From NCBI GenBank assembly GCA_019112635.1, contig DXIX01000006.1, forward strand, positions 1 through 64,000: a stretch of DNA of 64,000 nucleotides, read 5' to 3'. The translations under genes were made by a program, and so were the position numbers. Positions 6,961 through 57,504 of this stretch are shown here, piece by piece (position 1 is the first letter of the stretch; every line of letters begins with the position of its first letter). The DNA comes from Candidatus Blautia intestinigallinarum. GTDB taxonomy: Bacteria; Bacillota; Clostridia; Lachnospirales; Lachnospiraceae. The notes under the pieces were generated by a model. The model was not told where the DNA came from and made no database searches. It was given only the letters and a program-made list of their open reading frames with translations.

Positions 6961-6969
6961 ATCTGATAT

Positions 6970-7042
6970 GGGGCATTAGCGCAGTTGGGAGCGCGTAACA
7001 TTCGCATTGTTAAGGCCACGGGTTCGAATCCCGTATGCTCCA
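6970..7042 (+). tRNA. tRNA-Ala (anticodon CGC)
   Basis: The cloverleaf is complete: acceptor GGGGCAT/ATGCTCC (one G-U pair), D arm GCGC/GCGC, anticodon stem TAACA/TGTTA with loop TTCGCAT, and T arm ACGGG/CCCGT with TTCGAAT. The loop gives anticodon CGC, which reads GCG (Ala). The discriminator is A and CCA is not encoded. Confidence 0.92.
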
Positions 7043-7061
7043 TGGCCGTTTTATAGAATCC

Positions 7062-7135
7062 GGAAGCATAGCTCAGCTGGGATGAGCGTTCGCCTCACAC
7101 GCGAGAGGTCATGGGTTCGAGCCCCATTGCTTCCA
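7062..7135 (+). tRNA. tRNA-Val (anticodon CAC)
   Basis: Acceptor GGAAGCA/TGCTTCC, D arm GCTC/GAGC, anticodon stem TTCGC/GCGAG with loop CTCACAC, and T arm ATGGG/CCCAT. Anticodon CAC reads GTG (Val). CCA is not encoded. It is 19 nt behind tRNA-Ala and is probably co-transcribed with it. Confidence 0.92.
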
Positions 7136-7147
7136 CTCACAAAGAAA

Positions 7148-7229: not shown

Positions 7230-8447
7230 TCATCCTTCCAGTCCGGACAATATCTCTTTCACAGTTTTGGCAACTTTCACATTTTCCACATGAAAATCAC
7301 TCCAAGAGTTGTAGGCATCGATCCTCTCCTCATAAATCTGGGAAAGGGGCCGGCTTTGGGAAATAGGCCGGCCATCTATTTCTAATTGTCTCAAATCACG
7401 CTGAATAAAAACCACCTTTCCATTTTGCCGAAGGAGCTCCCAATTCTCAGGGCACACCACTACCCCGCCTCCCGTGGCAATCACCTGGCCTTTTTCTTTT
7501 GTAACTTGAGAAAGAATGGATGTCTCAATTTTTCGGAAACCTTCTTCTCCCACTTCCCGGAAAATATCCGGAATCTCCTTGCCCTCTGTCCGGACAATCT
7601 CCTGATCAATATCCACAAATTTTTTATTCAGACACTCAGCCAGCTTTTTCCCGACGGTAGTCTTTCCGCTTCCCGGCATCCCGATGATGCAGACATTGCT
7701 GACCTCCTGATACAGGTTCTTTCGAATCTCCTCCACTTTTTCATCTGGGATCTCCCTGTTCAGAAAAATCTCACAGGATTTTTTTGCCTGAGCCACCAGC
7801 ATGGAAAGCCCATCTATGTTCGGAATTCCCAGACGGTCTGCCATCAGCAGCAGTTTTGTCTTCAACGGATTATAAATCAAATCATAGACCGCCTCACAGC
7901 GCGGAAAACAGCTCAGATCAATGGCCGCTTCCCCTGTGTTCGGATACATTCCCAGCGGAGTCGTGTTTGCGATAATCTGTGCGTCATAATGTCTGGACAG
8001 ATTTTCATAGTTGTCCTCTCCTCTTCGGGATATCACCACAATTTTGTCTGCCCCTTCATCTTCCAAAGCCGCACGGACCGCCGGAGCCGCCCCTCCATTT
8101 CCCAGGATCAGCGCCTTTTTCCCTTTTACCTGAATTCCCAGCTTACGGACCATATAGCGGAAGCCATAGTAATCCGTGTTGTCTCCATACAGCTTTCCGT
8201 CCCGGTTGGCTATGGTATTGATACTACCAATCCTTCTGGCAAGTTCTGAGATTTCATCACAGAATTCGAACACAGTCTTCTTGTAGGGAATCGTCACATT
8301 CAGCCCCTGAAAATTCTTTTCCCTGAGAAAGCTTTCAACTTCTTTCGGTTTTTTCTCCACCAGCACATATTCATAGGAAGCAAGCTGGCTGTGTATCTGA
8401 GGAGAGAAGCTGTGTCCCAGCTTCTCTCCCAAAAGTCCGTAATTCAT
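7230..8447 (-). CDS. aroE/aroK: Bifunctional shikimate dehydrogenase-shikimate kinase
   Basis: The protein reduces 3-dehydroshikimate to shikimate with NADPH and then phosphorylates it to shikimate 3-phosphate. Residues 1 to about 245 are AroE (GHSFSP substrate motif, NVTIPYKK with the catalytic Lys, NTDYYGF, and GNGGAAPAV for the cofactor). From about 252 to the end is AroK, with Walker A GMPGSGKT, DIDQEI, and ATGGGVV. The two enzymes are normally separate, and the joint falls between complete domains, so this is a genuine fusion. The ATG overlaps the pheA stop by one base, and the gene is the last of the aromatic operon. Confidence 0.95.
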   Translation of the reverse strand: MNYGLLGEKLGHSFSPQIHSQLASYEYVLVEKKPKEVESFLREKNFQGLNVTIPYKKTVFEFCDEISELARRIGSINTIANRDGKLYGDNTDYYGFRYMVRKLGIQVKGKKALILGNGGAAPAVRAALEDEGADKIVVISRRGEDNYENLSRHYDAQIIANTTPLGMYPNTGEAAIDLSCFPRCEAVYDLIYNPLKTKLLLMADRLGIPNIDGLSMLVAQAKKSCEIFLNREIPDEKVEEIRKNLYQEVSNVCIIGMPGSGKTTVGKKLAECLNKKFVDIDQEIVRTEGKEIPDIFREVGEEGFRKIETSILSQVTKEKGQVIATGGGVVVCPENWELLRQNGKVVFIQRDLRQLEIDGRPISQSRPLSQIYEERIDAYNSWSDFHVENVKVAKTVKEILSGLEG

Positions 8448-9595
8448 TACATTACCTCCGGATAACTGCCCAGATACCGGAAGCTCTCACAGATGTGTTC
8501 CATATCCGCCAGTGACTGCAACAATTCTTTGGAATACACAGAACCCTCAAGATCCAGGTAGAACATGAACTCGAAATCCCGATCCGGAATCGGACGGCTC
8601 TCCAGCTTCGTCAGATTGATTCCCAATGCCGCGAACTTAGACAGAACTTTATTCAATCCGCCTGGTTTGTGGTTGACACTCAGCATCAGGCTGGTCTTGT
8701 CAGATCCCGGATATATCTCCAGATTTTTGGAGATGCAGATAAATCTGGTATAATTATTCTTCTGATCCTGCACACATCTCTCCAGAATATCCAGGTCATA
8801 CAGTTCCACACAGCTCTGTGAAGAAATTGCCGCCACATCTGTGCGGTCAGAATTTGCCACCATTTTTGAAGCCACTGCTGTGTTCTCGCAGACTGTGACC
8901 TTGACATCCGGATACTGTTTCAGATATTCGTTGCACTGGCTGATAGCCTGTTCATGAGAGAAAATCTCTCGGATATCGGATTTTTTCGTTCCAGGTTTTG
9001 CCAGAAGATTATGGTCTATTCCCAGGCGCAGAGCACGCACAATGTAGAAATTATATTTCGTCATCAAATCATAGGTACGGTTCACAGATCCCGCCGTGCT
9101 GTTTTCCACCGGCAGAACTCCGTAACGGCACATTCCCTGATCTACCGCCGCGAACACTCCCTCAAAATCTGTACAGTACATAATGTTTGTCTTAGTCTTG
9201 AAGATCTTATCCGCCGCAATCTGAGAATAGGCACCCTCCACACCCTGACAAGCGACAAACGGGTATTTTGGCAAGGTTTTCTCTGTGTTTTCGATTGCGT
9301 TTTGGATCATTTTCTCCCATGCGTTGTGTGGGCGTATCTGATCCTGCTGGTATGCTTTGCTCAGATCCATGATAACACTGAACAGATTCCGGTTAAATTC
9401 TGCCAGTTCCGGCTCAGACTGTTCGGTCACAGAGGCCAGTTTCTGTCTCTCCCTTGACTCATCCAGAATCGGAATCTCTTTCTTTTTCTTGTAATCTGCC
9501 AGCTCTGCGCACACTTTCATTCTCTTCTGAAAAAGTTCCAAAAGCTCCTTGTCAATTCCGTCAATCTCTTGTCTCAAATAGTCCATTTCTTTCAT
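8447..9595 (-). CDS. pheA: Chorismate mutase-prephenate dehydratase (P-protein)
   Basis: The enzyme converts chorismate to prephenate and then to phenylpyruvate, committing flux to phenylalanine. Residues 1 to about 88 form an AroQ chorismate mutase. About 110-285 form the dehydratase, with the NYTRFICISK region holding the catalytic TRF motif. About 295-375 form an ACT domain with HKPGGL and LESRP, the Phe-binding signatures, so feedback inhibition by Phe is expected. The length (382 aa) is normal. It lies 10 nt after aroC and is translationally linked to the aroE/aroK gene. Confidence 0.96.
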   Translation of the reverse strand: MKEMDYLRQEIDGIDKELLELFQKRMKVCAELADYKKKKEIPILDESRERQKLASVTEQSEPELAEFNRNLFSVIMDLSKAYQQDQIRPHNAWEKMIQNAIENTEKTLPKYPFVACQGVEGAYSQIAADKIFKTKTNIMYCTDFEGVFAAVDQGMCRYGVLPVENSTAGSVNRTYDLMTKYNFYIVRALRLGIDHNLLAKPGTKKSDIREIFSHEQAISQCNEYLKQYPDVKVTVCENTAVASKMVANSDRTDVAAISSQSCVELYDLDILERCVQDQKNNYTRFICISKNLEIYPGSDKTSLMLSVNHKPGGLNKVLSKFAALGINLTKLESRPIPDRDFEFMFYLDLEGSVYSKELLQSLADMEHICESFRYLGSYPEVM

Positions 9596-9605
9596 CTCTC
9601 CTTTA

Positions 9606-10685
9606 TTACTGTTCTAAAATCATGTCGTAAATAGTCAGCGCCGCGATTGCCTCCACACAGGGAACCGCTCTTGGCACAATGCAGGGATCATGTCTTCCAT
9701 GAACCACCAGTTTTGTGTTCACCTTGTCTCTCATGGAGACACTGTCCTGTTCCATGGCAATAGAAGAAGTCGGTTTCATCGCCACACGGAACACAATCGG
9801 CATGCCTGTGGAGATTCCTCCCAGAATTCCGCCGTGCCGGTTGGTCCGGGTTACAATCTCGCCCTCTCGCATCTCATAACTGTCATTATTCTGAGAACCT
9901 CTAAGCCCCACACAGCCAAATCCATTACCAAATTCAATTCCTTTGACTGCCGGAATTCCAAAAGCTGCCGCCGCAATCCGGTTTTCAATCCCTTCAAACA
10001 TGGGATTTCCGATTCCTGCCGGCACTCCGGTGATCACACACTCAATCACGCCTCCCAGGGAATCCAGATCCTTCTTAGCCTGATCAATGGCCCTCAACAT
10101 CTGTTCCCCTTTCTCGTCTTCCAGAACCGGAAATGCTTTCTCGCGCACCTTCTGCAGATCCGCCTGAATCGGATCTGCGGGATTCACCGGACGGTCCTGA
10201 ACGTGTCCGATCCGATAAATATGTGCCGCAACCTGAATTCCTCTCTTTGCCAATGCCTGCATACAGATATTTCCTGCCAGGCAGACCGGCGCCGTCAGTC
10301 TTCCGGAAAAATGTCCTCCTCCGGCAACATCCTGAAAACCGTGAAACTTCATCTGTGCCGGGTAGTCGGCATGTCCCGGTCTTGGAACATCCTTCAGATT
10401 CTCATAGTCGGAAGACCTGGTATTGGTATTGGGGATCACTGCACAAAGCGGCGCTCCGCAGGTGGTATTCTCCACAAGTCCTGAGAGGAATTCCGGCTGG
10501 TCACCTTCTTTTCTCGTGGTCGTGTGAGCTCCCTGCCCGGGCGCACGACGCTTCATAAACTTCTTCAGCTCCTCCATGTCAATGGAGATCCCTGCCGGCA
10601 GTCCGTCGATCGTCACTCCAATCGCCTTGGAGTGAGACTGTCCGAACACAGAAATTTTTACATTTTTTCCAATCACAGAACCCAT
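9606..10685 (-). CDS. aroC: Chorismate synthase
   Basis: AroC removes phosphate from EPSP to form chorismate and needs reduced FMN. Family signatures are visible: GQSHSKAIG near the N-terminus, RRAPGQ around residue 47, RPGHADYP, and the C-terminal GRHDPC. The 359-residue length is standard. It starts 1 nt after the aroA stop, consistent with coupling. Nothing unusual is seen. Confidence 0.97.
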   Translation of the reverse strand: MGSVIGKNVKISVFGQSHSKAIGVTIDGLPAGISIDMEELKKFMKRRAPGQGAHTTTRKEGDQPEFLSGLVENTTCGAPLCAVIPNTNTRSSDYENLKDVPRPGHADYPAQMKFHGFQDVAGGGHFSGRLTAPVCLAGNICMQALAKRGIQVAAHIYRIGHVQDRPVNPADPIQADLQKVREKAFPVLEDEKGEQMLRAIDQAKKDLDSLGGVIECVITGVPAGIGNPMFEGIENRIAAAAFGIPAVKGIEFGNGFGCVGLRGSQNNDSYEMREGEIVTRTNRHGGILGGISTGMPIVFRVAMKPTSSIAMEQDSVSMRDKVNTKLVVHGRHDPCIVPRAVPCVEAIAALTIYDMILEQ

Positions 10686-10686
10686 A

Positions 10687-11955
10687 TTAAATCATAACCA
10701 CCTTTCCACCTAATTTCTGATAATCCTCATAAAAACCTGGATAAGATTTATTCACTGCCTGTGCTCCCCGAATCCTCACAGGCCCTTTACACACACAGGC
10801 TGCCACAGCGGCCGTCATGGCAATCCGATGGTCTCCCGCGGCATCAATGCAGCCTCCCGTCAGATAACTGCGCCCATGAATTTCCAGCCCATCCTCCAGC
10901 TCTCTCACATCTGCTCCCAGCTGACAAAGCATATCCGAAACCGTCTTCAGCCGGTCGCTCTCTTTTAAGCGCAGTCTTTTGGCATTATAAATCCTTGTCA
11001 CTCCAAGACTTACGCTGGCAGCGGCCGCCAGAACCGGAACCAGATCCGGGATATCCGAGGCATCAATCTCAATTCCTCTCAACTGTCCCGGAGATACCTG
11101 GATTCTATCTTCCCGGCAGTGAATCTCTGCGCCCATCTGCCTCAACAGATCCACAATTTTCTTATCTCCCTGTCTGGAATTCATATCCAGTCCATTGATC
11201 TCAATCTCTCTTTTTCCAAGCGCACCGGCGGTCAGCCAGAAAGCCGCATTGGACCAGTCGCCTTCCACAGATTCCTCTCTCTTCATCTGGTAGCTCTGTC
11301 CTCCGGGTACCCGGTATCCTTGCTCCTCTCTGTAAACCACAATTCCGTAGTCTTCCAGTACCTGAAGTGTCATATCCACGTACCGTGCAGACTGGAGCGG
11401 AGAAGTAATCTCAATTCTGCTCTCTGCGTCCAGCAAAGGAAGAGCAAACAAAAGTCCTGTAATATACTGTGACGAGACATCTCCCGGCAGACGGTAGATT
11501 CCAGCTTTTAGCTTTCCTTCGCAGTGAAGGGGATTCTCCCCTTGAGGTGAGAGTCTGCATCCATGTCTCTCCATTTCTTCGTACAGGGGAGAGAGCGGTC
11601 TTCTCATCAGCCGCCCCTCTCCGTAAAACTCTCCCTGGATTCCCAGAGCCGCTGTCACCGGAAGCAAAAAACGCAGAGTAGATCCACTCTCACCACAGAG
11701 AAATCTGACCGGAGCTTTTCTCTCTATTCTCTCCGCCGGAATCACCTGGCAGATACCGCCTTGTTGGATGATCTGTGTTCCCCATGCGCGCAGGCACCGC
11801 AGTGTCGCCTCGATATCCTCTGAATCTCCCTCACATCGAATCCGGGACGCCGTATCCGCAAGGGCGGATGCGATAAAATAACGATGCGCCATAGATTTTG
11901 AGGGGATAGCTGAGATCGCTCCACACAAATCCGCACGCTCAATGACTGCTTCCAT
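10687..11955 (-). CDS. aroA: 3-phosphoshikimate 1-carboxyvinyltransferase (EPSP synthase)
   Basis: AroA joins phosphoenolpyruvate to shikimate 3-phosphate. The N-terminal IPSKSMAHR loop, the GESGSTLRF motif near residue 90 and the C-terminal RLKESDRL and GDHRIAM signatures are present over 422 residues. The early motif has Ser-Met-Ala where many enzymes have Ser-x-Thr-x-R, a variation seen in clostridial sequences. The gene overlaps the aroB end by 17 nt. Confidence 0.96.
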   Translation of the reverse strand: MEAVIERADLCGAISAIPSKSMAHRYFIASALADTASRIRCEGDSEDIEATLRCLRAWGTQIIQQGGICQVIPAERIERKAPVRFLCGESGSTLRFLLPVTAALGIQGEFYGEGRLMRRPLSPLYEEMERHGCRLSPQGENPLHCEGKLKAGIYRLPGDVSSQYITGLLFALPLLDAESRIEITSPLQSARYVDMTLQVLEDYGIVVYREEQGYRVPGGQSYQMKREESVEGDWSNAAFWLTAGALGKREIEINGLDMNSRQGDKKIVDLLRQMGAEIHCREDRIQVSPGQLRGIEIDASDIPDLVPVLAAAASVSLGVTRIYNAKRLRLKESDRLKTVSDMLCQLGADVRELEDGLEIHGRSYLTGGCIDAAGDHRIAMTAAVAACVCKGPVRIRGAQAVNKSYPGFYEDYQKLGGKVVMI

Positions 11956-13012
11956 ACGCCTCTCCCATCGTTCCTATTACCGCGTTTTCCAGTTCCTGTA
12001 TCTTCATCTTCTTCGCAAAGCATTCTCCAATACGCCGGAGCATAATAAAGGAAATCATATCTCCCGCTCTCTTTTTATCACTTTTCATCGGTTTACACAG
12101 CTGTTCTGGGGAATACTCCGTCCAGACCGGCAGATGATATCTCTCCAGCATCCGGATCATCTCCTCCAGACATCCGGAACCGCACTCGCCCTGATCTTCC
12201 GACAGTTTGACTGCCAGCACCATTCCCATGGCCACCGCCCGTCCATGGCCAATCTCATACTGACTGTTCTTCTCTATGGAATGCCCCAAGGTATGTCCAA
12301 AATTCAGAAACTGCCGGACACCCAGGTCATATTCATCCTTTTGTACAATTTCTTTCTTAATCGTGACACATCTGGACACAATCTCCTCAATTTGCGGCCA
12401 GACAGGATGTTTCAGGCTTTCCCAGAGATCTTCATCGGCAATAGCCCCATACTTGATCACTTCCGCCATGCCATCGGAAAAAATTTCAGGCGGCAGTGTT
12501 TTTAAAGTCTCACAGTCACAGAGCACCAGAGACGGCTGATAAAAACATCCGGCCAGGTTCTTTCCTGCTCTCAGATCAATGGCTGTTTTTCCTCCCACAG
12601 AGGAATCCACCGCCGCCAGAAGTGTTGTGGGAATCTGTATGAAGTCCACACCTCTGAGATAAGTAGCTGCGGCAAACCCGGTCAGGTCTCCCACAACACC
12701 GCCCCCCAGAGCTACCAGCATATCACTCCTGGTAATTGTCTTTTCAGCAAGGAATTCCAGAAGAGCCGCATAGTGTCCAATGTCCTTGGATTTCTCACCA
12801 TTTTCTATGGTGAATACATCCACCAGAAATCCTGCCTCTTCCATACTTGTCCTCACCAAATCCAAATACAGACTCTCCACCACATCGTCAGTCACAATCA
12901 CCGCATGGTTTCCTTTCGCAACCTTTCTGATCAGAGAGCCGACCTGTCTGAGAATGCCGTTTTCTATGAGGATCTCATAATCCCGGGATGCTTTCACTAC
13001 AATTTTTTTCAT
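11939..13012 (-). CDS. aroB: 3-dehydroquinate synthase
   Basis: AroB cyclises DAHP to 3-dehydroquinate using NAD and a divalent metal. The GGGVVGDLTGF nucleotide loop (about residue 103), DSSVGGKTAID and the metal-binding Glu/His set (MAEVIKYGAI, FNFGHTLGHSIE) are all visible. The length of 357 is typical. It overlaps tyrA by 4 nt. The next enzyme of the pathway, 3-dehydroquinate dehydratase (AroD/AroQ), is not encoded anywhere in this cluster. Confidence 0.96.
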   Translation of the reverse strand: MKKIVVKASRDYEILIENGILRQVGSLIRKVAKGNHAVIVTDDVVESLYLDLVRTSMEEAGFLVDVFTIENGEKSKDIGHYAALLEFLAEKTITRSDMLVALGGGVVGDLTGFAAATYLRGVDFIQIPTTLLAAVDSSVGGKTAIDLRAGKNLAGCFYQPSLVLCDCETLKTLPPEIFSDGMAEVIKYGAIADEDLWESLKHPVWPQIEEIVSRCVTIKKEIVQKDEYDLGVRQFLNFGHTLGHSIEKNSQYEIGHGRAVAMGMVLAVKLSEDQGECGSGCLEEMIRMLERYHLPVWTEYSPEQLCKPMKSDKKRAGDMISFIMLRRIGECFAKKMKIQELENAVIGTMGEAYGSSH

Positions 13013-13845
13013 CTTCCGTCTACCTCTACTTTACGTTCTTTTCCTTCTTTCAGAAGAGCTTTCAGATATTCCTGATCCTCCTGTTCCAGGGCGTCTTCGT
13101 ACTTCTTGAGTTCATCTCTCAGAAATTTGATCTCTTCTATCAGGTAATCCCGGTTTTCCAGGAAAAGAGCACTCCACATCTCTTCATTCAGCCAGGCCAC
13201 CCTTGTGAGATCTTTATAGCTGCCTGCTGAATATCCATGATGTTCTCTGGCTGTGGGGCTCTTGATAAAAGCATTGGACACCACATGGGCCATCTGGGAA
13301 GTGAAGGCAATCATCTTGTCATGGTTCTCTGCCGTGGTGACCGTGATCATTCCAAAACGCGCCGGCTTCAGCAATTCCTTGATATGCTCAAGCCAGGCCA
13401 TGTTATCACAGTGCTCCGGCACCAGAACCATAGCCATGCCATCATACAGATTCGCCAGACTGTATTTGTAACCGGCATAATGTCTCCCGGCCATGGGGTG
13501 GCCTCCCACAAAAGTAAAGCCATACTGCTTCGCAATCTCGAATCCCACCTTACAGATGTTTCGTTTCGTGCCTCCACAGTCGATCACAATGGTATTTTTG
13601 GATATGATCGAGGCTTTTTCTTTTAAATATTGAATGATATCCTGCGGATACAGGGCGATCAGCAGAAGATCGCACCCGGGAATTGTGGTTTCGTCTAATA
13701 CGCCGTCAATGTCTTCTGCCAACAATGCCAAGTCTAATATCTTCTTGCTGCTGTCATATGCGTAGACTTCCCAGTCCTTACTCTCATGATAAGCCTTTGC
13801 AAAAGAGCCGCCGATCAGACCTAAGCCAACAATTCCTACTCGCAT
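13009..13845 (-). CDS. tyrA: Prephenate dehydrogenase
   Basis: TyrA oxidatively decarboxylates prephenate to 4-hydroxyphenylpyruvate, the tyrosine branch. The Rossmann motif GLGLIGGSFAKA is at residues 7-18 and the active-site GGHPMAG around 140. At 278 residues it ends after the helical dimerisation domain and lacks the C-terminal ACT domain found in longer homologues, so direct Tyr feedback through ACT is not expected. It overlaps aroF by 10 nt. Confidence 0.94.
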   Translation of the reverse strand: MRVGIVGLGLIGGSFAKAYHESKDWEVYAYDSSKKILDLALLAEDIDGVLDETTIPGCDLLLIALYPQDIIQYLKEKASIISKNTIVIDCGGTKRNICKVGFEIAKQYGFTFVGGHPMAGRHYAGYKYSLANLYDGMAMVLVPEHCDNMAWLEHIKELLKPARFGMITVTTAENHDKMIAFTSQMAHVVSNAFIKSPTAREHHGYSAGSYKDLTRVAWLNEEMWSALFLENRDYLIEEIKFLRDELKKYEDALEQEDQEYLKALLKEGKERKVEVDGR

Positions 13846-14852
13846 TCGTCCATTACCTCCTTTATTTTTTTCACTTTATTCATCACTTTCGCAAACTGAT
13901 CCGGAGTCAGAGACTGTGGTCCGTCACAGAGTGCTTTTGCCGGGTTGTTGTGCACTTCAATCATCAATCCGTCTGCCTTGCAGGCCACTGCCGCACACGC
14001 CATGGGATCTACCAGTCTTGCCATTCCTGTCGCATGACTTGGATCTACAATCACCGGCAGATGGGTCAGTTCATGAAGAAGAGGCACTGCCGCAAGATCC
14101 AGCGTATTTCTTGTGTATGTCTCGAAAGTACGGATTCCTCTCTCACAGAGAATTACATTCTCGTTTCCTCCCGCCATGATGTACTCCGCACTCATCAGCC
14201 ATTCTTTGATGGTATTGGCAAGACCTCTCTTGAGGAGGATCGGTTTCTGCAGTTTTCCCAGCTCTTTGAGCAGCTCGAAGTTCTGCATATTTCTCGCGCC
14301 TACCTGGATCACATCCACATCCTCGAACAGCGGAATGTGATTGGCATTCATGATCTCTGTGACAATGGGAAGCCCGGTTTCTTTTTTGGCCTCCAGCAAA
14401 AGCTCAATTCCTTCTGCTCTCATTCCCTGGAAATCGTATGGGGAAGTTCTCGGCTTGAACGCTCCGCCTCTGAGCATGGTAGCGCCCGCGGCCTTTACTC
14501 TCTTGGCTACTTCAATAATCTGTTCTTCCGATTCCACAGAACAAGGTCCTGCAATCACTGCGAAATTTCCGCCGCCAACTTTTACCTTAGCGTCTCCCAC
14601 TTCGATTACAGCATCTTCAGGATGGAATTTACGGTTTGCTTTTTTGAAAGGATCTGTGATTCTCTTCACAGCATCCACAATGTCCAACATTCTCAGAAGA
14701 TCCATATCAATATTGCTGGTATCGCCCACCAGACCCAGTACTGTCTGATAGATACCCTTCGAAACATGGACATCCACTCCCTGTCCTTTGAACCATTCAA
14801 TCAGGTTTCTCATCTGCTGTTCTGTCACACCATGTTTCAATACTACAATCAT
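13836..14852 (-). CDS. aroF: 3-deoxy-7-phosphoheptulonate (DAHP) synthase
   Basis: This enzyme condenses erythrose 4-phosphate and phosphoenolpyruvate, the first step of aromatic synthesis. Residues 1 to about 65 form the ferredoxin-like regulatory domain typical of the AroF/TM0343 type, which confers Phe/Tyr feedback in characterised members. The TIM barrel follows, with AGPCSVES, KPRTSPYDFQG, KRGLANTI and DPSHATG. A TTAGGAGGAATTAGAG ribosome site fixes the ATG. It is the first enzyme gene of the operon and lies behind the Phe/Tyr leader-peptide attenuator. Confidence 0.96.
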   Translation of the reverse strand: MIVVLKHGVTEQQMRNLIEWFKGQGVDVHVSKGIYQTVLGLVGDTSNIDMDLLRMLDIVDAVKRITDPFKKANRKFHPEDAVIEVGDAKVKVGGGNFAVIAGPCSVESEEQIIEVAKRVKAAGATMLRGGAFKPRTSPYDFQGMRAEGIELLLEAKKETGLPIVTEIMNANHIPLFEDVDVIQVGARNMQNFELLKELGKLQKPILLKRGLANTIKEWLMSAEYIMAGGNENVILCERGIRTFETYTRNTLDLAAVPLLHELTHLPVIVDPSHATGMARLVDPMACAAVACKADGLMIEVHNNPAKALCDGPQSLTPDQFAKVMNKVKKIKEVMDECE

Positions 14853-14936: not shown

Positions 14937-14969
14937 AAAAAAACCGATGTCTGCTACGCAAACATCGGC
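14937..14969 (-). terminator. Attenuator terminator of the aromatic operon
   Basis: On the minus strand CCGATGT pairs with ACATCGG across an 11-base interval and is followed by seven T. It lies 35 nt after the leader peptide stop and about 85 nt before aroF. Its central CGTAGCA is complementary to TGCTACG inside the leader coding region (15026-15032). This offers a competing antiterminator when ribosomes stall early in the peptide. Confidence 0.8.
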
Positions 14970-15003
14970 TCATAAACACATTGAACTCCTTTACCAGGTC
15001 GTG

Positions 15004-15126
15004 TCAAATATCCGGCAATGTTTTATCGTAGCAAAAAAAGCCAACGCTCTCATAAAAATAAAAGCCCTGGAAGTTAAAAAAGTAATATGCGTTTGTATTC
15101 ATCATATTTACTTTCTGATTTGCCAT
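15004..15126 (-). CDS. Phe/Tyr-rich leader peptide of the aromatic operon (attenuation)
   Basis: A 40-codon reading frame starts at an ATG preceded by AAAGGA at normal spacing and ends with TGA. Between codons 14 and 33, twelve of twenty residues are Phe (7) or Tyr (5), including YYFF, FYFY and FF runs, and there is no Trp. It follows a good promoter and precedes an intrinsic terminator, the arrangement of classical attenuators. Inference: shortage of charged Phe or Tyr tRNA stalls the ribosome, prevents the terminator and allows aroF-tyrA-aroB-aroA-aroC-pheA-aroE/K expression. Composition and context together make chance unlikely. Confidence 0.88.
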   Translation of the reverse strand: MANQKVNMMNTNAYYFFNFQGFYFYESVGFFCYDKTLPDI

Positions 15127-15155
15127 GATAAAGCATCCTTTCGTCGTTTTTTATG

Positions 15156-15183
15156 ATTTTACACCTTTCCTGAAAAAAGTCAA
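15156..15183 (-). promoter_or_regulatory. Promoter of the aromatic operon
   Basis: TTGACT and TAAAAT are spaced by 16 nt, with TG directly before the -10 box (extended -10). Transcription would begin about 20 nt upstream of the leader peptide ATG. Confidence 0.75.
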
Positions 15184-15206: not shown

Positions 15207-16187
15207 TTAATTTTCATGCAATACTTCACGAAATACCCTGAGCGCGTTCTTATTCCACATTTTTTCCAGGACACGGTCTGACATTTTATATCGTTTTAAA
15301 GCCCCTGCCAGAAGGGGAATCTTGTCACAACTGTCCAACTGAATCCTGCCGCTGATGCCATCCAGATCGCTTCCCAGGGCAAGTACATCCTCGCCGCCCA
15401 CCTGGTAGATATGGTGAATGTGCCGGAGCATCCCATTGATGGTGCTGATGTTCCTGCTGCTCAGAAAACCCGGACAGAAGTTCAGTCCAATCACGCCGCC
15501 CTTCTCTGCGATGGCCCGGATCATCTCATCCGTCAGATTTCTCGGGTGACTGGTCACCGCTCTCGCATTGGAATGGGACGCTATGAAAGGTTTTTTGCTC
15601 CGCCTGGCCACATCCCAGAATCCTCCATCGGATAAATGAGACACATCAATGATCATACCCAGATCGTTCATCTCCTCGATCAGAACTTTGCCAAAGGGCT
15701 TCAGGCCTTTTCTCATTACAGAACTGTCTCTGGAATTTGGATAACCGGCCGCATTCTCATAATTCCATGTGAGCGTAATCAGCCTCACACCTGCATCATA
15801 AAATTCATGGAGCCTTCTCAGGCTGGTTCCCACAGGCACTGCATCCTCCAGTGTGAGAAGACTCCCCACGCGACGGTTCTTCGCACAGTAACAGACATCC
15901 TCATAACTTCGGACTGGCTGCAGGCGTCCTCCCGTCTGCAGCCTCCATCTGTGATAGGAATGAATTCTTCTTCTGGCTATATGATAAGCATAGTCTTCCC
16001 TCTTTGCAGCCGGAATATATCCGTTCATGAAAAACACCGCGAATGCCTGCACCAAAGCATCCGCCTTCTCCAGCCTTTTCACATCCACACCATAAGGATT
16101 TTCCATCAGAGTTCCCCTGTGTCCCCACAGGCCGTCCGGTCTGGACAGACGCCACAGGGTATCACAGTGCAAGTCAATCATTCTCAT
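15207..16187 (-). CDS. Membrane dipeptidase family (M19) zinc dipeptidase
   Basis: This predicted metallodipeptidase has the N-terminal DLHCDT metal motif, a mid-protein Glu in LLTLEDA, and ASHSNARAV and GLNFCP segments of the renal dipeptidase fold. The start is placed at the ATG giving MRMIDLHCD because AGGAGG lies 6 nt upstream; a longer frame would put that site inside the coding region. No signal peptide is seen, so it is probably cytosolic. The start overlaps the end of the penicillin-binding protein gene by 14 nt, suggesting co-translation and perhaps a role in peptide or cell-wall turnover. The natural substrate is unknown. Confidence 0.88.
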   Translation of the reverse strand: MRMIDLHCDTLWRLSRPDGLWGHRGTLMENPYGVDVKRLEKADALVQAFAVFFMNGYIPAAKREDYAYHIARRRIHSYHRWRLQTGGRLQPVRSYEDVCYCAKNRRVGSLLTLEDAVPVGTSLRRLHEFYDAGVRLITLTWNYENAAGYPNSRDSSVMRKGLKPFGKVLIEEMNDLGMIIDVSHLSDGGFWDVARRSKKPFIASHSNARAVTSHPRNLTDEMIRAIAEKGGVIGLNFCPGFLSSRNISTINGMLRHIHHIYQVGGEDVLALGSDLDGISGRIQLDSCDKIPLLAGALKRYKMSDRVLEKMWNKNALRVFREVLHEN

Positions 16188-18309
16188 AGTTTTCCTCCTG
16201 AACATTGTCGTTCACATAGGCAGTTCCTGTGAGGTAGCTCTCCAGCACCGGACGCAGATTGTCCACCACATATCCACTGCCTCCCCGGTCTTTTACATCT
16301 TCCACCATTGTGACAATCAGAATCGGATTCTCCGTGTCCGGATCTGTGGTATAAACGGCCATCCAGCCCAGCTCCGTTCCATCTGTGTCATCCACACTGT
16401 CCTTAATCTCGGCAGTCCCGGTCTTGCCTGCCAACTGAATGTCATCCATATGCAATCCATAGCCAGTGCCATTGGAGTCATTCACCACATCAACCAGATC
16501 CTCTGTAATGGTCTGTACCGCTTCCTGGGTAAATGCTTCAGAGATCCAGACAGATGGCTCAGAGGAATCTTCCATCAGAAGCTTGGGTTCCAGCATATCC
16601 CCGTCATTCAAGAAAGAAGTATAGATGCTTGCCAGATGAAGAGGATTCACCAGAATCTGTCCCTGTCCATACCCACTGTCTGCCAGCTGAATCTCGTCTG
16701 AAATCACTTCACCGTCATTGGAATACTGAGAGACTGTCAGGCTGATCGGAAAAGGAACTTCCTGACCAAACCCAATCTTCTTCAGATACTCTGTGAATGT
16801 CTCACCTCCAATCTGAAGCGCGGCCTTTGCAAAATAAATATTATCGGAATAGACGAATGCATTCCGCAGTGTCACATCCTCCCCGTAATCGTGCAGAGTT
16901 GTCACGTAATAGGATCCCCAGGATTCATCTTTTTGCCAGCTGGTTCCACTGTAGCCCAGATTCTCATCCGCCGAGAGCAGCCCCGTGCTCAGACCAATTC
17001 CCGCCGTCACTGGTTTGAAACTGGAGCCTGGTGCAAATGTCTGTCGGAAGCGGTTGTATAAAGGCTGATCTTCATCCTCATTCAAGGCATCCCAGGTATC
17101 CTGAGACATCCCCAGTACAAACTCATTGTTATCATAAGAAGGTGTACTCACCAGAGCCAGCACTTCTCCGGTGAGCGGATTCATAGCCACACTGCAGCTC
17201 TTATCCTCTTTGAACTGTTCATAGAGCATCTCCTGCAGATTCAGGTCGATCGTTGTCTCTATATCTTCCCCGTCCTGAGCCTGATCCGAAGCCAAAGTCA
17301 GACGGACTTCCCCGTCCTCATTCAAGATATTAATCTGATTCCCATCCTCACCTTTTAATTCTGTCTCGTACAGACTTTCCAGACCGCTTCTTCCGATCAC
17401 GCTGTTTGCGTCATATCCCTGTCCATCCAATTTTTCCAGATCTTCCGCCGTCACACTCTGTACATATCCCACCAGATGAGCCGACGCCTCACCTGTCGGA
17501 TAGACCCGGTCCTCGGCATCGGTCACCATCACTCCCGGTATCTCCAAAAGCTGATCCACCAGCTCACTGTTGGCATTCTCTCCTTCCAGGGTAATTGTCA
17601 CGGAATTGTCTTTGGCAATCTCTTTGACCGGGACGAAGGAATCGTCCTGCACCCAGGAAGCATCCAGAGCATTTTGAATACTGTCTGCCGAAATCTCCAG
17701 AAGATCTGCCAGTTTCTGGATATCCTCCTCCTGCTGTCCGGCATCCACACTCATCTGTCCCGGCACCAGTCCCACAGAGGACACCACACCCTGCGCGGCC
17801 AGTGTTCTGCCATTCCTGTCATAGATACTTCCCCTATCAGATTCGTCTGTGATGACCTGAACCTTATCTGTGGCACGCAGTTCCGGAAAAATCACGTTGT
17901 CCTCCCACTGTATCTTCATACCGATTCCCTCAGAATGAACATGGATCTGATTGTCAAAAGTCAGTTCCCCAGCCACCGTATCCATCGTGGTCGTATATTT
18001 CGTCCAACCATCTTTGGTCGCCTGTCCGGGAAATTCGATCTTCAGATTACTGGCCTCGATTCCTTCATAAATGTTTTGGTTTCTCTCAATAAAACTTTCC
18101 TCATCTACACTCTCCTGGCTCTCGGAATCCAGCATCTGATACATTGCCTCGTAATCCCCCTCTTCAATGTATCCCATATATTCCCGGATCACTTCCTGCG
18201 GAGTCGGTCTTAAAAAGACATACCAGCCGCCCACACCAGCCACAGCCGCCACAGCAATCAGTCCCAGCGCCAGTCCTGTTTTCTTCTTTTTACCGGTATT
18301 TTTCTGCAA
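16174..18309 (-). CDS. Class B penicillin-binding protein with MecA-type N-terminal domain
   Basis: This is a cell-wall transpeptidase of 711 residues. A membrane anchor (about 11-33) is followed by an NTF2-like MecA_N domain (about 35-150), a PBP dimerisation domain with RGSIYDRNG, and the transpeptidase domain. Active-site motifs are SSFK (about 429), SDN (about 487) and KTG (about 628). The start is TTG with GGAGG 6 nt upstream. The PBP2a/PBP3-like architecture can accompany lowered beta-lactam affinity in some relatives, but nothing here shows resistance. The gene is divergent to an ECF sigma operon, which may control it; that link is inference. Confidence 0.93.
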   Translation of the reverse strand: MQKNTGKKKKTGLALGLIAVAAVAGVGGWYVFLRPTPQEVIREYMGYIEEGDYEAMYQMLDSESQESVDEESFIERNQNIYEGIEASNLKIEFPGQATKDGWTKYTTTMDTVAGELTFDNQIHVHSEGIGMKIQWEDNVIFPELRATDKVQVITDESDRGSIYDRNGRTLAAQGVVSSVGLVPGQMSVDAGQQEEDIQKLADLLEISADSIQNALDASWVQDDSFVPVKEIAKDNSVTITLEGENANSELVDQLLEIPGVMVTDAEDRVYPTGEASAHLVGYVQSVTAEDLEKLDGQGYDANSVIGRSGLESLYETELKGEDGNQINILNEDGEVRLTLASDQAQDGEDIETTIDLNLQEMLYEQFKEDKSCSVAMNPLTGEVLALVSTPSYDNNEFVLGMSQDTWDALNEDEDQPLYNRFRQTFAPGSSFKPVTAGIGLSTGLLSADENLGYSGTSWQKDESWGSYYVTTLHDYGEDVTLRNAFVYSDNIYFAKAALQIGGETFTEYLKKIGFGQEVPFPISLTVSQYSNDGEVISDEIQLADSGYGQGQILVNPLHLASIYTSFLNDGDMLEPKLLMEDSSEPSVWISEAFTQEAVQTITEDLVDVVNDSNGTGYGLHMDDIQLAGKTGTAEIKDSVDDTDGTELGWMAVYTTDPDTENPILIVTMVEDVKDRGGSGYVVDNLRPVLESYLTGTAYVNDNVQEENYEND

Positions 18310-55422: not shown

Positions 55423-55712
55423 ACAAGTTTACCGAGAGTGAAATGCAGTGACAAGGAGGAGTACATAATTTCTGGATGCGCAGAGAGGAGACGGCAGGTG
55501 GAAGTCTCCGTGACAGAGTTATGGAAGGTAGCCTTCGAGCAGTGGACTGAACCGCACGGATGTGCGCAGTAGGCTTCAACGTTTTTTCCACGTTACAGGA
55601 AAGCAATATAGAATTCATGTATTGACAGAGTGCGGAGAGGAATCTTCGAAATTAGGTGGTACCGCGGTTTTCATCGCCCTAAGCTTTTTAAGCTTGGGGC
55701 GTTTTTATTTTT
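55423..55712 (+). promoter_or_regulatory. T-box riboswitch (probably valine-specific) controlling ilvB-ilvN
   Basis: The leader has the stem I landmarks (GGAGTACA, GCAGAGAGGAGACGG, GGTGGAAG), the CCTTCGAG element, the T-box core AGGTGGTACCGCGG (about 55654-55667) and a terminator (CGCCCTAAGCTT/AAGCTTGGGGCG then T-rich, 55675-55712). In ATGGAAGGTAGCCTTCGAG the best specifier candidate is GTA (Val), fitting the pathway; the exact codon is an inference. Uncharged tRNA would allow readthrough into ilvB. Confidence 0.9.
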
Positions 55713-55785: not shown

Positions 55786-57504
55786 ATGAAACAGATTACA
55801 GGTAACAAATTGTTTGTGAAAGCTTTGAAAGAAGAAGGCGTGGAAGTTCTCTTTGGCTACCCGGGGGCGACCACTATTGATATCAGTGATGAGCTGGGAA
55901 AAGACGGAAGTATCGACATTATTCTTCCCCGCCATGAGCAGGCACTGGTTCATGAGGCAGATGCCTATGCCAGAACCACGGGAAAAGTGGGAGTCTGCCT
56001 GGTGACCAGCGGACCCGGAGCGACCAATGTGGTGACTGGCCTTGCCACTGCCAATTACGACAGTGTTCCCATCGTATGTTTCACCGGCCAGGTGGCCAGA
56101 CACTTGATTGGCAATGACGCATTTCAGGAAGTGGATATTGTGGGAATTACCAGAAGTATCACAAAATATGGAATTACAGTGAGAAAAAGAGAAGATCTGG
56201 GGCGGATCATCAAAGAAGCTTTTTATATCGCCCGCACGGGAAGGCCGGGGCCGGTTCTGGTAGATCTTCCTAAGGATGTGATGAGTGAGCTGGGAAGTGC
56301 AGAGTATCCAAAGACTGTGAATATCCGTGGATACAAACCGAATACCAGTGTTCATATCGGACAGCTTAAGAAAGCGCTGAAAATGCTCCAGAAGGCGAAG
56401 CGGCCACTGTTTTTGGCAGGAGGCGGCCTGAGCATCGCACGGGCAAATGAGATTTTCACGGAAGTTGTGGAAAAGATGAAAGTGCCGGTGGTCACGACCG
56501 TCATGGGCAGGGGAGCCATTCCCACAGATCATCCGCTCTTTGTGGGGAATCTGGGCATGCACGGAGCTTACGGAGCCAATATGGCGGTGAGCAACTGTGA
56601 CCTTTTGTTTTCCATCGGAACCCGTTTTAATGACCGTATTACGGGAAAACTCCATGAGTTTGCGCCGAAGGCTCAGATTGTGCATATTGATATCGATACC
56701 TCTTCCATTTCCAAGAATGTCCATGTGGATGTGCCGATTGTGGCAGATGCCAAAGAGGCGGTTACCAAGATGGCAGAGTATGCGCAGGAACTCAATACTC
56801 AAAAGTGGCTGTCACAGATTCAGGCGTGGAAGGAAGAGCATCCGCTGACCATGAAACGGGGTAAAATGATGAGTCCTCTGGATATCATTGAGGAGATTAA
56901 CCGGCAGTTTGATGAGATGATTCTGGTTACAGACGTGGGGCAGCATCAGATGCTGGCGGCCCAGTATGTACAGATTAACCAGAAGAAGCATATGATTATG
57001 TCCGGCGGCCTGGGAACCATGGGCTATGGACTTCCGGGGGCAATCGGAGCGAAAATTGGCAATCCGGATTCCACCGTACTCACGATCTGCGGCGACGGCG
57101 GCGTGCAGATGAATATCCAGGAGATGGCTACAGCCGTTCTGGAGGAACTTCCGATTATCATCTGTATCTTTAACAATGAGTATCTTGGCATGGTACGTCA
57201 GTGGCAGAAATTATTCTATGGAAAACGGTATGCCATGACGAACCTGAAAGCGGGGGCACTCTCAAGACGTACAAACGGAGAGGAATATCCGGAGTATACG
57301 CCGGATTTCGTGAAGCTTGCCGAGAGCTACGGGGCAAAAGGATACCGGGTGACGAAGACAGAAGAGATCGCGCCGGCTTTTGAGGCGGCGAAGAAAAATA
57401 CAAAAGTGCCGACCATCATTGAATTTATCATTGATCCGGAGGAAATGGTATATCCGATGATTCAGCCTGGCGGAACTTTGGAAGAAATGATTATGGACTG
57501 TTAG
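55786..57504 (+). CDS. ilvB: Acetolactate synthase, large subunit
   Basis: This ThDP enzyme makes acetolactate (Val/Leu) or acetohydroxybutyrate (Ile). GYPGATTIDI and the ThDP Glu in LPRHEQALVHEADAYAR (about residue 53), the TSGPGATN loop, and the ThDP/Mg motif GDGGVQMNIQEMATA...NNEYLGMVRQWQ are present over 572 residues. The ATG follows GGGAGG at 9 nt; upstream in-frame sequence belongs to the T-box leader and is not coding. It forms the holoenzyme with ilvN. Confidence 0.96.
   Translation: MKQITGNKLFVKALKEEGVEVLFGYPGATTIDISDELGKDGSIDIILPRHEQALVHEADAYARTTGKVGVCLVTSGPGATNVVTGLATANYDSVPIVCFTGQVARHLIGNDAFQEVDIVGITRSITKYGITVRKREDLGRIIKEAFYIARTGRPGPVLVDLPKDVMSELGSAEYPKTVNIRGYKPNTSVHIGQLKKALKMLQKAKRPLFLAGGGLSIARANEIFTEVVEKMKVPVVTTVMGRGAIPTDHPLFVGNLGMHGAYGANMAVSNCDLLFSIGTRFNDRITGKLHEFAPKAQIVHIDIDTSSISKNVHVDVPIVADAKEAVTKMAEYAQELNTQKWLSQIQAWKEEHPLTMKRGKMMSPLDIIEEINRQFDEMILVTDVGQHQMLAAQYVQINQKKHMIMSGGLGTMGYGLPGAIGAKIGNPDSTVLTICGDGGVQMNIQEMATAVLEELPIIICIFNNEYLGMVRQWQKLFYGKRYAMTNLKAGALSRRTNGEEYPEYTPDFVKLAESYGAKGYRVTKTEEIAPAFEAAKKNTKVPTIIEFIIDPEEMVYPMIQPGGTLEEMIMDC

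Follow-up and report, generated by a model that had tools for sequence, protein, structure and literature searches.

The leader of the aromatic gene cluster in the window (the whole stretch of 64,000 nucleotides that was analysed) very probably controls the aro/tyrA/pheA operon by ribosome-mediated transcription attenuation, with charged tRNA-Phe and tRNA-Tyr as the sensed signal. A Shine-Dalgarno (SD)-led ORF rich in Phe and Tyr codons is followed by an intrinsic terminator and aroF, this arrangement is conserved in relatives, and the leader RNA contains two mutually exclusive helices that co-vary.

Leader ORF and aromatic gene cluster

On the minus strand, a promoter-like site, an SD sequence, a 40-codon ORF, a terminator and aroF follow one another in this order (Table 1). 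The promoter-like site was found by a consensus scan and consists of the -35 element TTGACT (15183-15178), a 16-nt spacer and the -10 element TAAAAT (15161-15156). The original prediction of a Phe/Tyr-rich, Trp-free 40-codon frame with its own ribosome site was confirmed on reading the region: the ORF is preceded by AAGGA and encodes MANQKVNMMNTNAYYFFNFQGFYFYESVGFFCYDKTLPDI, with codons 14-33 containing 7 Phe and 5 Tyr and the whole translation free of Trp. The Phe and Tyr codons form a run in codons 14-25 and a second cluster in codons 30-33, and the stop codon occupies 15006-15004. By sequence alone, a small ORF with an SD, as expected of a ribosome-mediated attenuator, thus lies upstream of the first structural gene, and its 7 Phe and 5 Tyr codons match end products of a cluster that contains pheA and tyrA. 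Among 1198 small ORFs on both strands of the window (length 12-60 aa, SD match 3 or more, start variants counted apart), seven reached 7 Phe/Tyr within 16 residues, three of them being start variants of the leader ORF, and the leader ORF alone reached 9.

The order and spacing of the seven genes from aroF to aroE-aroK suggest that they form one operon. Identification with NCBIfam models agreed with the prediction that tyrA and pheA are present and trp is absent: no trp gene was found among the seven. The last gene is a fusion with domain matches at residues 3-243 and 250-380, for which the aroE and kinase models scored below their curated cut-offs.

Table 1. Features of the leader and of the aromatic gene cluster in the window
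Feature	Coordinates	Strand	Basis
Putative sigma-70 promoter	15156..15183	-	Consensus match only: 10/12 positions
Shine-Dalgarno AAGGA of leader ORF	15136..15140	-	Sequence reading; 9 nt before ATG
Leader peptide gene, 40 codons + stop	15004..15126	-	ORF reading and relatives
Likely control codons 14-25 (5 Phe, 4 Tyr)	15052..15087	-	Sequence and folding with placed ribosome
Segment 2 (antiterminator 5' half, inside leader ORF): TGCTACG...AAACATTG	15016..15033	-	Folding, covariation
Segment 3 (terminator 5' arm, loop, start of 3' arm)	14952..14968	-	Covariation, folding
Intrinsic terminator	14937..14971	-	Consensus scan, folding
aroF, DAHP synthase, first structural gene	13836..14852	-	TIGR01361, PF00793 and ferredoxin-like PF18152
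tyrA, prephenate dehydrogenase family	13009..13845	-	Best models below curated cut-offs
aroB, 3-dehydroquinate synthase	11939..13012	-	NCBIfam
aroA, EPSP synthase	10687..11955	-	NCBIfam
aroC, chorismate synthase	9606..10685	-	NCBIfam
pheA, chorismate mutase-prephenate dehydratase	8447..9595	-	NCBIfam
aroE-aroK fusion (shikimate dehydrogenase + shikimate kinase)	7230..8447	-	Domain matches

Terminator and antiterminator in the leader RNA

The intrinsic terminator predicted between the leader ORF and aroF was recovered by the consensus scan as a stem of 14 pairs with a loop of 3 (14971-14941). Its core comprises 11 bp (14968-14958 with 14954-14944) closing the loop GTA and is followed by a U tract (14943-14937). 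The complementarity of TGCTACG and CGTAGCA noticed at the outset is real but makes up only half of the antiterminator, which has about 15 pairs rather than 7: its two parts join TGCTACG (15033-15027) to CGTAGCA (14958-14952) and AAACATTG (15023-15016) to CGATGTTT (14967-14960). Segment 3 is common to both structures, with 14968 and 14959 paired in the terminator only. Duplex energies, covariation and folding all pointed to an antiterminator that excludes the terminator and whose helix overlaps the end of the leader ORF.

The minimum free energy (MFE) of the 221-nt leader was better than that of 200 out of 200 dinucleotide shuffles (z -5.98), which tells little about switching because the MFE fold is the terminator. 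Ribosomes were then placed at Tyr15, Tyr25, Phe31 or the stop codon, or omitted, and only the RNA downstream of the placed ribosome was folded, on the assumption that the ribosome covers 12 nt beyond the A site and with RNA ending at 14952 as the decision point. With the ribosome at Tyr25, about 20 nt from segment 2, the antiterminator had a mean pair probability of 0.89 at the decision point (MFE -23.4); once the whole terminator was transcribed, the terminator stood at 0.90 and the antiterminator at 0.09 at equilibrium. With the ribosome at Phe31, the remaining 7 antiterminator pairs reached 0.79 at the decision point (MFE -11.9) and the terminator 1.0 afterwards. A ribosome at the stop codon gave a terminator probability of 1.0, segment 2 lying outside the fold by construction. 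In the absence of a ribosome, the antiterminator probability was 0.88 for RNA ending at the decision point; in the full RNA, the early leader pairs with segment 2 and the terminator stood at 1.0.

Since the antiterminator also forms without a ribosome, folding alone cannot tell a stalled from an empty leader, and equilibrium folding, in which the finished terminator wins even with a ribosome at Tyr25, was rejected as proof of a switch. These foldings show that two competing structures exist in the leader RNA; analogy with known attenuators suggests that stalling tips the balance between them early enough. Geometry makes codons 14-25 the likely control codons, since the TGCTACG half would lie under a ribosome positioned at Phe30, Phe31 or Tyr33; even then, the rest of segment 2 retains some weak pairing until the terminator is complete. 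The initial proposal of stalling at earlier codons is supported, with this refinement to codons 14-25.

According to the proposed mechanism, when Phe and Tyr are plentiful the leading ribosome would reach the stop codon; with at least the AAACATTG part of segment 2 thereby covered, segment 3 would fold with the 3' arm, and transcription would stop at about 14937. When Phe or Tyr is short, the ribosome would stall inside codons 14-25 and segment 2 would stay available for pairing with segment 3 while the 3' arm is still to be transcribed, so that the polymerase would continue into aroF. The mechanism supposes that the promoter is used, that the leader is translated, that termination takes place in the cell and that the ribosome has the assumed footprint, and it predicts a response to Phe/Tyr starvation with OR logic of both amino acids.

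Leaders upstream of aroF in relatives

A DAHP synthase matching AroF was present in 8 of 64 genomes of the genus, the window's own counted, and full-length orthologues with 63-93% identity were found in five of the seven others with a match. A divergent Phe/Tyr leader with terminator preceded four of these five orthologues (L002-L005, but not L006). In the family, aroF was found at E <= 1e-60 in 136 of 299 genomes. Upstream regions were fetched for 100 further stretches and for 80 named-genome loci among the matches listed; family hits at contig edges (G153, G233, G271), low full-length hits (G109, G195, G307) and hits not starting at query residue 1 were left unfetched. The scanned set of 211 regions lay apart from the window itself (L001), two distant DAHP synthases (L007, L008), one locus with an upstream region under 170 nt (L078) and two whose match did not begin near residue 1 (L188, L206).

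The last 400 nt before aroF were scanned with a strict detector, which required an ORF of 12-60 aa whose SD matched over 4 nt or more and which had 7 or more F/Y within 16 residues, and a terminator no more than 110 nt past the stop. Among the matches listed, an SD-led Phe/Tyr ORF with terminator was detected in 58 of the 211 regions, and in 71 when the terminator was not required. The reverse strand of the same regions yielded no leader with terminator and no leader alone, and ten dinucleotide-shuffled sets of 211 yielded 0 each with a terminator and 0-2 without. Thirteen other amino-acid pairs were found in 0-15 regions; the best two, FL (15) and YC (9), each have a letter in common with FY. 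Among the matches listed, strict leaders occurred at 51 of 102 loci whose AroF was at least 62.5% identical to that of the window and at 7 of 109 below; the corresponding counts were 21/43 and 0/90 in the window's family, and 30/59 and 7/19 for the named-genome loci among the matches listed. These identities were taken from search lists for L002-L044, L097 and L126, the rest of L045-L137 (no more than 62%) having one class value.

As evidence to the contrary, 39 of the 102 loci in the more similar class did not pass even the strict test for a leader alone, one of them being L002, whose leader lies beyond the 400 nt scanned. A relaxed re-examination of 37 negatives (at least 62%), run without a shuffled control and leaving out L038-L137, added a leader with terminator at eight loci and none at the rest. 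In three of these eight, in which pheA precedes aroF (L014, L018, L144), the leader was located before pheA. In L002 (G010:C1), the leader terminator and aroF are about 280 nt apart, and the stretch between them contains a long inverted repeat seen by eye, perhaps a small inserted element. The genome G159 carries two aroF copies, L009 and L097 (80% and 79% identical to that of the window), both preceded by a Phe/Tyr leader, of which that of L097 had no detected terminator.

Sixty leaders were compared, namely the 58 strict ones and, under a looser SD rule, those of the window and of L002. They range from 16 to 51 aa and have little alignable sequence outside F/Y, parts such as G..FC recurring. 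The alignment bore out the original prediction in that the Phe/Tyr run is kept in strongly divergent leaders, with co-varying terminator and antiterminator. Phe and Tyr codons numbered 569 in frame vs 194 and 250 in the other frames, which is not evidence because the leaders were chosen for Phe/Tyr. Any Trp was present in 11 leaders.

The leaders contain more Phe than Tyr (316 vs 253), and that of L028 has 9 Phe and no Tyr, as would suit an attenuator sensing mainly Phe only, or a general slowdown of translation. Such behaviour is reported for the AroR leader upstream of C. glutamicum aroF (Neshat et al., 2014, as cited in PMC11802643; PMC4046766), where, in the account given in PMC11802643, stalling raises transcription on Phe limitation and Tyr supply is without effect. 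By this description, to which the comparison is confined, AroR resembles the window leader in that a DAHP synthase gene is preceded by a leader peptide containing Phe and Tyr; it differs in being actinobacterial and in having Phe-Tyr-Phe only, whereas the clostridial leader has 9 F/Y in its control run and precedes a cluster that includes tyrA and pheA. Because Phe and Tyr occur together in 59 of the 60 leaders, we consider the sensing of mainly Phe, or of a general slowdown of translation, unlikely.

On a quick tree of 131 AroF proteins, built without bootstrap, the character "leader" required 32 changes, partly because of the strict thresholds and of differences in the operon head, and a single origin of the leader is not claimed. 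The tree omits L009 and L011 (stop inside the aligned range) and L188 and L206 (short), and includes of L038-L137 only the 20 loci refetched as L218-L237.

Pairing and covariation across leaders

In the 60 leaders, the duplex of segments 2 and 3 was more stable than with shuffled segment 2 (mean z -2.45), z being below -2 in 43, below -1 in 53, above -1 in 7 and above 0 in 3. Of two named carriers, Angelakisella massiliensis (L148), which is in culture, had z -2.15, and Papillibacter cinnamivorans (L212) had z +1.18, which gives its antiterminator no support. Native pairs of leader and terminator averaged -19.1 kcal/mol vs -13.5 kcal/mol for swapped partners; the native partner was within the best tenth in 43 of 60, and the native sum was unmatched in 5000 random assignments. 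Segment 2 started at a median of 16 nt past the last F/Y (5 nt or less in 15 of the 60) and its end coincided with the stop in the median (0 nt), distances that are partly built in because the search was confined to that stretch.

Covariation was examined in an alignment of 21 rows, consisting of 17 of the 60 leaders, picked by eye because a TTTGC-like motif occurs close to the end of their ORF, with two aldolase-headed and two pheA-headed leaders added. With the window's own row as the structure, which favours it over slid versions, and with related rows that are not independent, 254 of 312 antiterminator cells (81%) were paired vs 28-53% when slid, and double changes occurred in 7 of 15 pairs and 19 cells (slid, 2-6 pairs and 2-6 cells). 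The terminator was 94% paired in these rows, with double changes in 7 of 11 pairs (slid, 1-3). Moreover, the terminator loop varies with the leader codons, as in GTA/TAC (L001), ATA/TAT (L029), ACA/TGT (L030) and GCA/TGC (L031), a co-change seen in many but not all rows (L034 does not fit). The leader codons that co-vary with the loop are those for FCC/FCY, and this covariation goes beyond the needs of a plain terminator.

It also argues against the ORF being a functional small protein, such as a membrane peptide, with the terminator merely closing a separate transcript. A hydrophobic aromatic peptide with its own SD and recurrent parts such as G..FC would fit such a protein, but the lengths from 16 to 51 aa, the scarcity of alignable sequence beyond F/Y and the position of the leader before pheA in three pheA-first loci make this very improbable.

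T-boxes in the window and at sister aroF loci

No Rfam family, T-box (RF00230) included, reached its gathering score at the leader, and a permissive local scan gave five hits there at E of at least 1.5, far below gathering score. The presence there of a T-box, or of any other Rfam element, was thus rejected, in keeping with the first reading, in which no T-box core was seen. The scan at gathering score detected a T-box at 55439-55684 (+) of the window, which served as positive control and lies before a gene, starting near 55786, that we take to be acetolactate synthase-like.

A T-box was found before aroF at six sister loci: L045, L057 and L061 among 20 strict-negative loci (of which L011, L014 and L018 are leader-like by other readings), L054 and L059 in a second set of 20 (leader bearer L044 included), and L200 alone among 15 named loci among the matches listed, seven of which are strict leader bearers. 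None was found in a further 20 loci (leader-only L097 included) or in 20 loci that bear a leader, 16 of which pass the strict joint test and four a looser reading. The specifier codons, read by eye, are presumably UUC in L045, L057, L059 and L061, UAC in L200 and UGG in L054. Five of the six T-box rows belong to one 14-row AroF group (SH-aLRT 100) with no leader row inside; the sixth (L219, the UGG one) is placed elsewhere on the tree. These T-boxes resemble the window leader in the gene that they precede and in their aromatic codons (by eye) and differ from it in that the tRNA is bound directly by RNA, with no leader peptide. The statement that Firmicutes usually use T-boxes holds only in part: it fits these sister lineages and has to be qualified by the leader-peptide attenuators published for Firmicutes.

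Control of the operon by a T-box or other tRNA- or metabolite-binding riboswitch, with an incidental Phe/Tyr ORF, is scarcely credible: the six sister loci and a terminator that alone would suit any attenuator speak for it, and the lack of an Rfam match at the leader, the 0 of 20 leader-bearing loci, the frequency of SD-led Phe/Tyr ORFs far above shuffled sequence and the antiterminator arm inside the ORF speak against it.

Leaders away from aroF

A profile was built from 15 leader peptides, all of a single type, and many leaders of other types escape it. In the 64 genus genomes it recovered the window's leader and those of four relatives at E <= 1.8e-11, followed by matches in G002 (3.5e-4) and G037 (8.5e-4). 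In both, an SD-led Phe/Tyr ORF with terminator precedes an HMGL-like (PF00682) gene (G002, L276/L258, C67:3422-3508; G037, L275/L259, C102:47349-47426), for which the best PDB match is 3dxi, a "putative aldolase". No leader was found in the 450 nt before the match at eight other genus genomes with an HMGL-like gene. Some profile hit at E <= 1 occurred in 28 of the 64 genomes, mostly weak, and these were inspected up to E 0.06. In the family, hits at E <= 0.002 were obtained in 14 of 299 genomes, all before aroF or a pheA-aroF operon except that of G120. The weak hits put down to chance are those in G062, G063 and G029 (stop inside the match, no SD-led Phe/Tyr ORF with terminator), G010 C1:1857241 (overlapping a protein gene on the opposite strand) and G120 (inside a longer open frame, no such ORF or terminator). 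Before AroG-type DAHP synthases (eight genus loci, 450 nt each) no convincing Phe/Tyr/Trp leader was found; the weak candidate L273 has a GTG start, an SD match of 3, 7 F/Y/W in 16 residues and a terminator-like stem 64 nt on.

Relation to known attenuators

Leader-peptide attenuation is a textbook mechanism, classic in E. coli and usually taught as Proteobacterial, and would not have been expected in the window. The E. coli attenuators pheL-pheA, pheST and trpL-trp share the mechanism and segment logic proposed for the window leader, but respond to one amino acid each and belong to another phylum and other genes. These three are named in a passage of PMC11802643. In Firmicutes, leader-peptide attenuators are described for his (PMC9413887), hisS/hisZ (PMC2965389) and S. 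aureus ilv (PMC5794164), which are His or Leu sensors on other genes. The uORFC-13-1 motif before Acholeplasma aroF is, by its description in PMC8632094, likewise a uORF with at least one Phe codon and an adjacent terminator; its 24 representatives come only from Acholeplasma and unassigned environmental sequences, and that description mentions no Tyr run. For the tyrA/aroF operons of Bacillus, Enterococcus and Streptococcus, PMC1173090 gives predicted upstream attenuators drawn from a website and, in the passage concerned, leaves their sensor unnamed. No description of a Phe/Tyr leader before aroF in Clostridia was found in the open-access literature, to which the search was largely confined. 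A study by Panina et al. from 2003 is said to treat aromatic regulation in low-GC Gram-positives and could contain prior art.

Comparative sequence evidence gives good support to interpreting the window leader as a further, widespread case of the known mechanism. If so, classical leader-peptide attenuation would govern Phe and Tyr synthesis in many Clostridia, many genomes would have a function assigned to a small ORF that is otherwise nameless, and the aroF leaders and sister T-boxes would represent a natural exchange of one RNA sensor for another. In B. subtilis, RNA polymerase is reported to outrun the ribosome (PMC7858274, PMC9226507), which counts against an attenuator, as that would suppose coupling in Clostridia. 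As attenuation needs a ribosome close behind RNA polymerase, the leaders would offer a direct test of coupling in Clostridia, which is of interest because their relative B. subtilis is described in PMC7858274 as largely uncoupled.

A broader reading, in which a dual Phe and Tyr attenuator was the ancestral and widespread control of the shikimate/Phe/Tyr operon in a large group of Clostridia, Phe-, Tyr- or Trp-T-boxes took its place in sister lineages, and the leader acts as an OR gate under tight coupling, seems to us evenly poised between right and wrong. An OR gate for two amino acids would require tight transcription-translation coupling in Clostridia, and the same switch before the uncharacterised HMGL-like gene of two same-genus genomes would place that enzyme in the aromatic amino-acid economy.

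Genes flanking the cluster

Just past the end of the cluster, on the opposite strand, lie genes for tRNA-Ala (CGC) and tRNA-Val (CAC) at 6969-7136 (+) of the window. On its other side, the ORF directly preceding the leader (15207-16205) had no NCBIfam match and is presumably dipeptidase-like. The start of this ORF is overlapped by the end of a penicillin-binding protein gene (16174-18309, -), for which the best NCBIfam model was PBP4(5), below cut-off.
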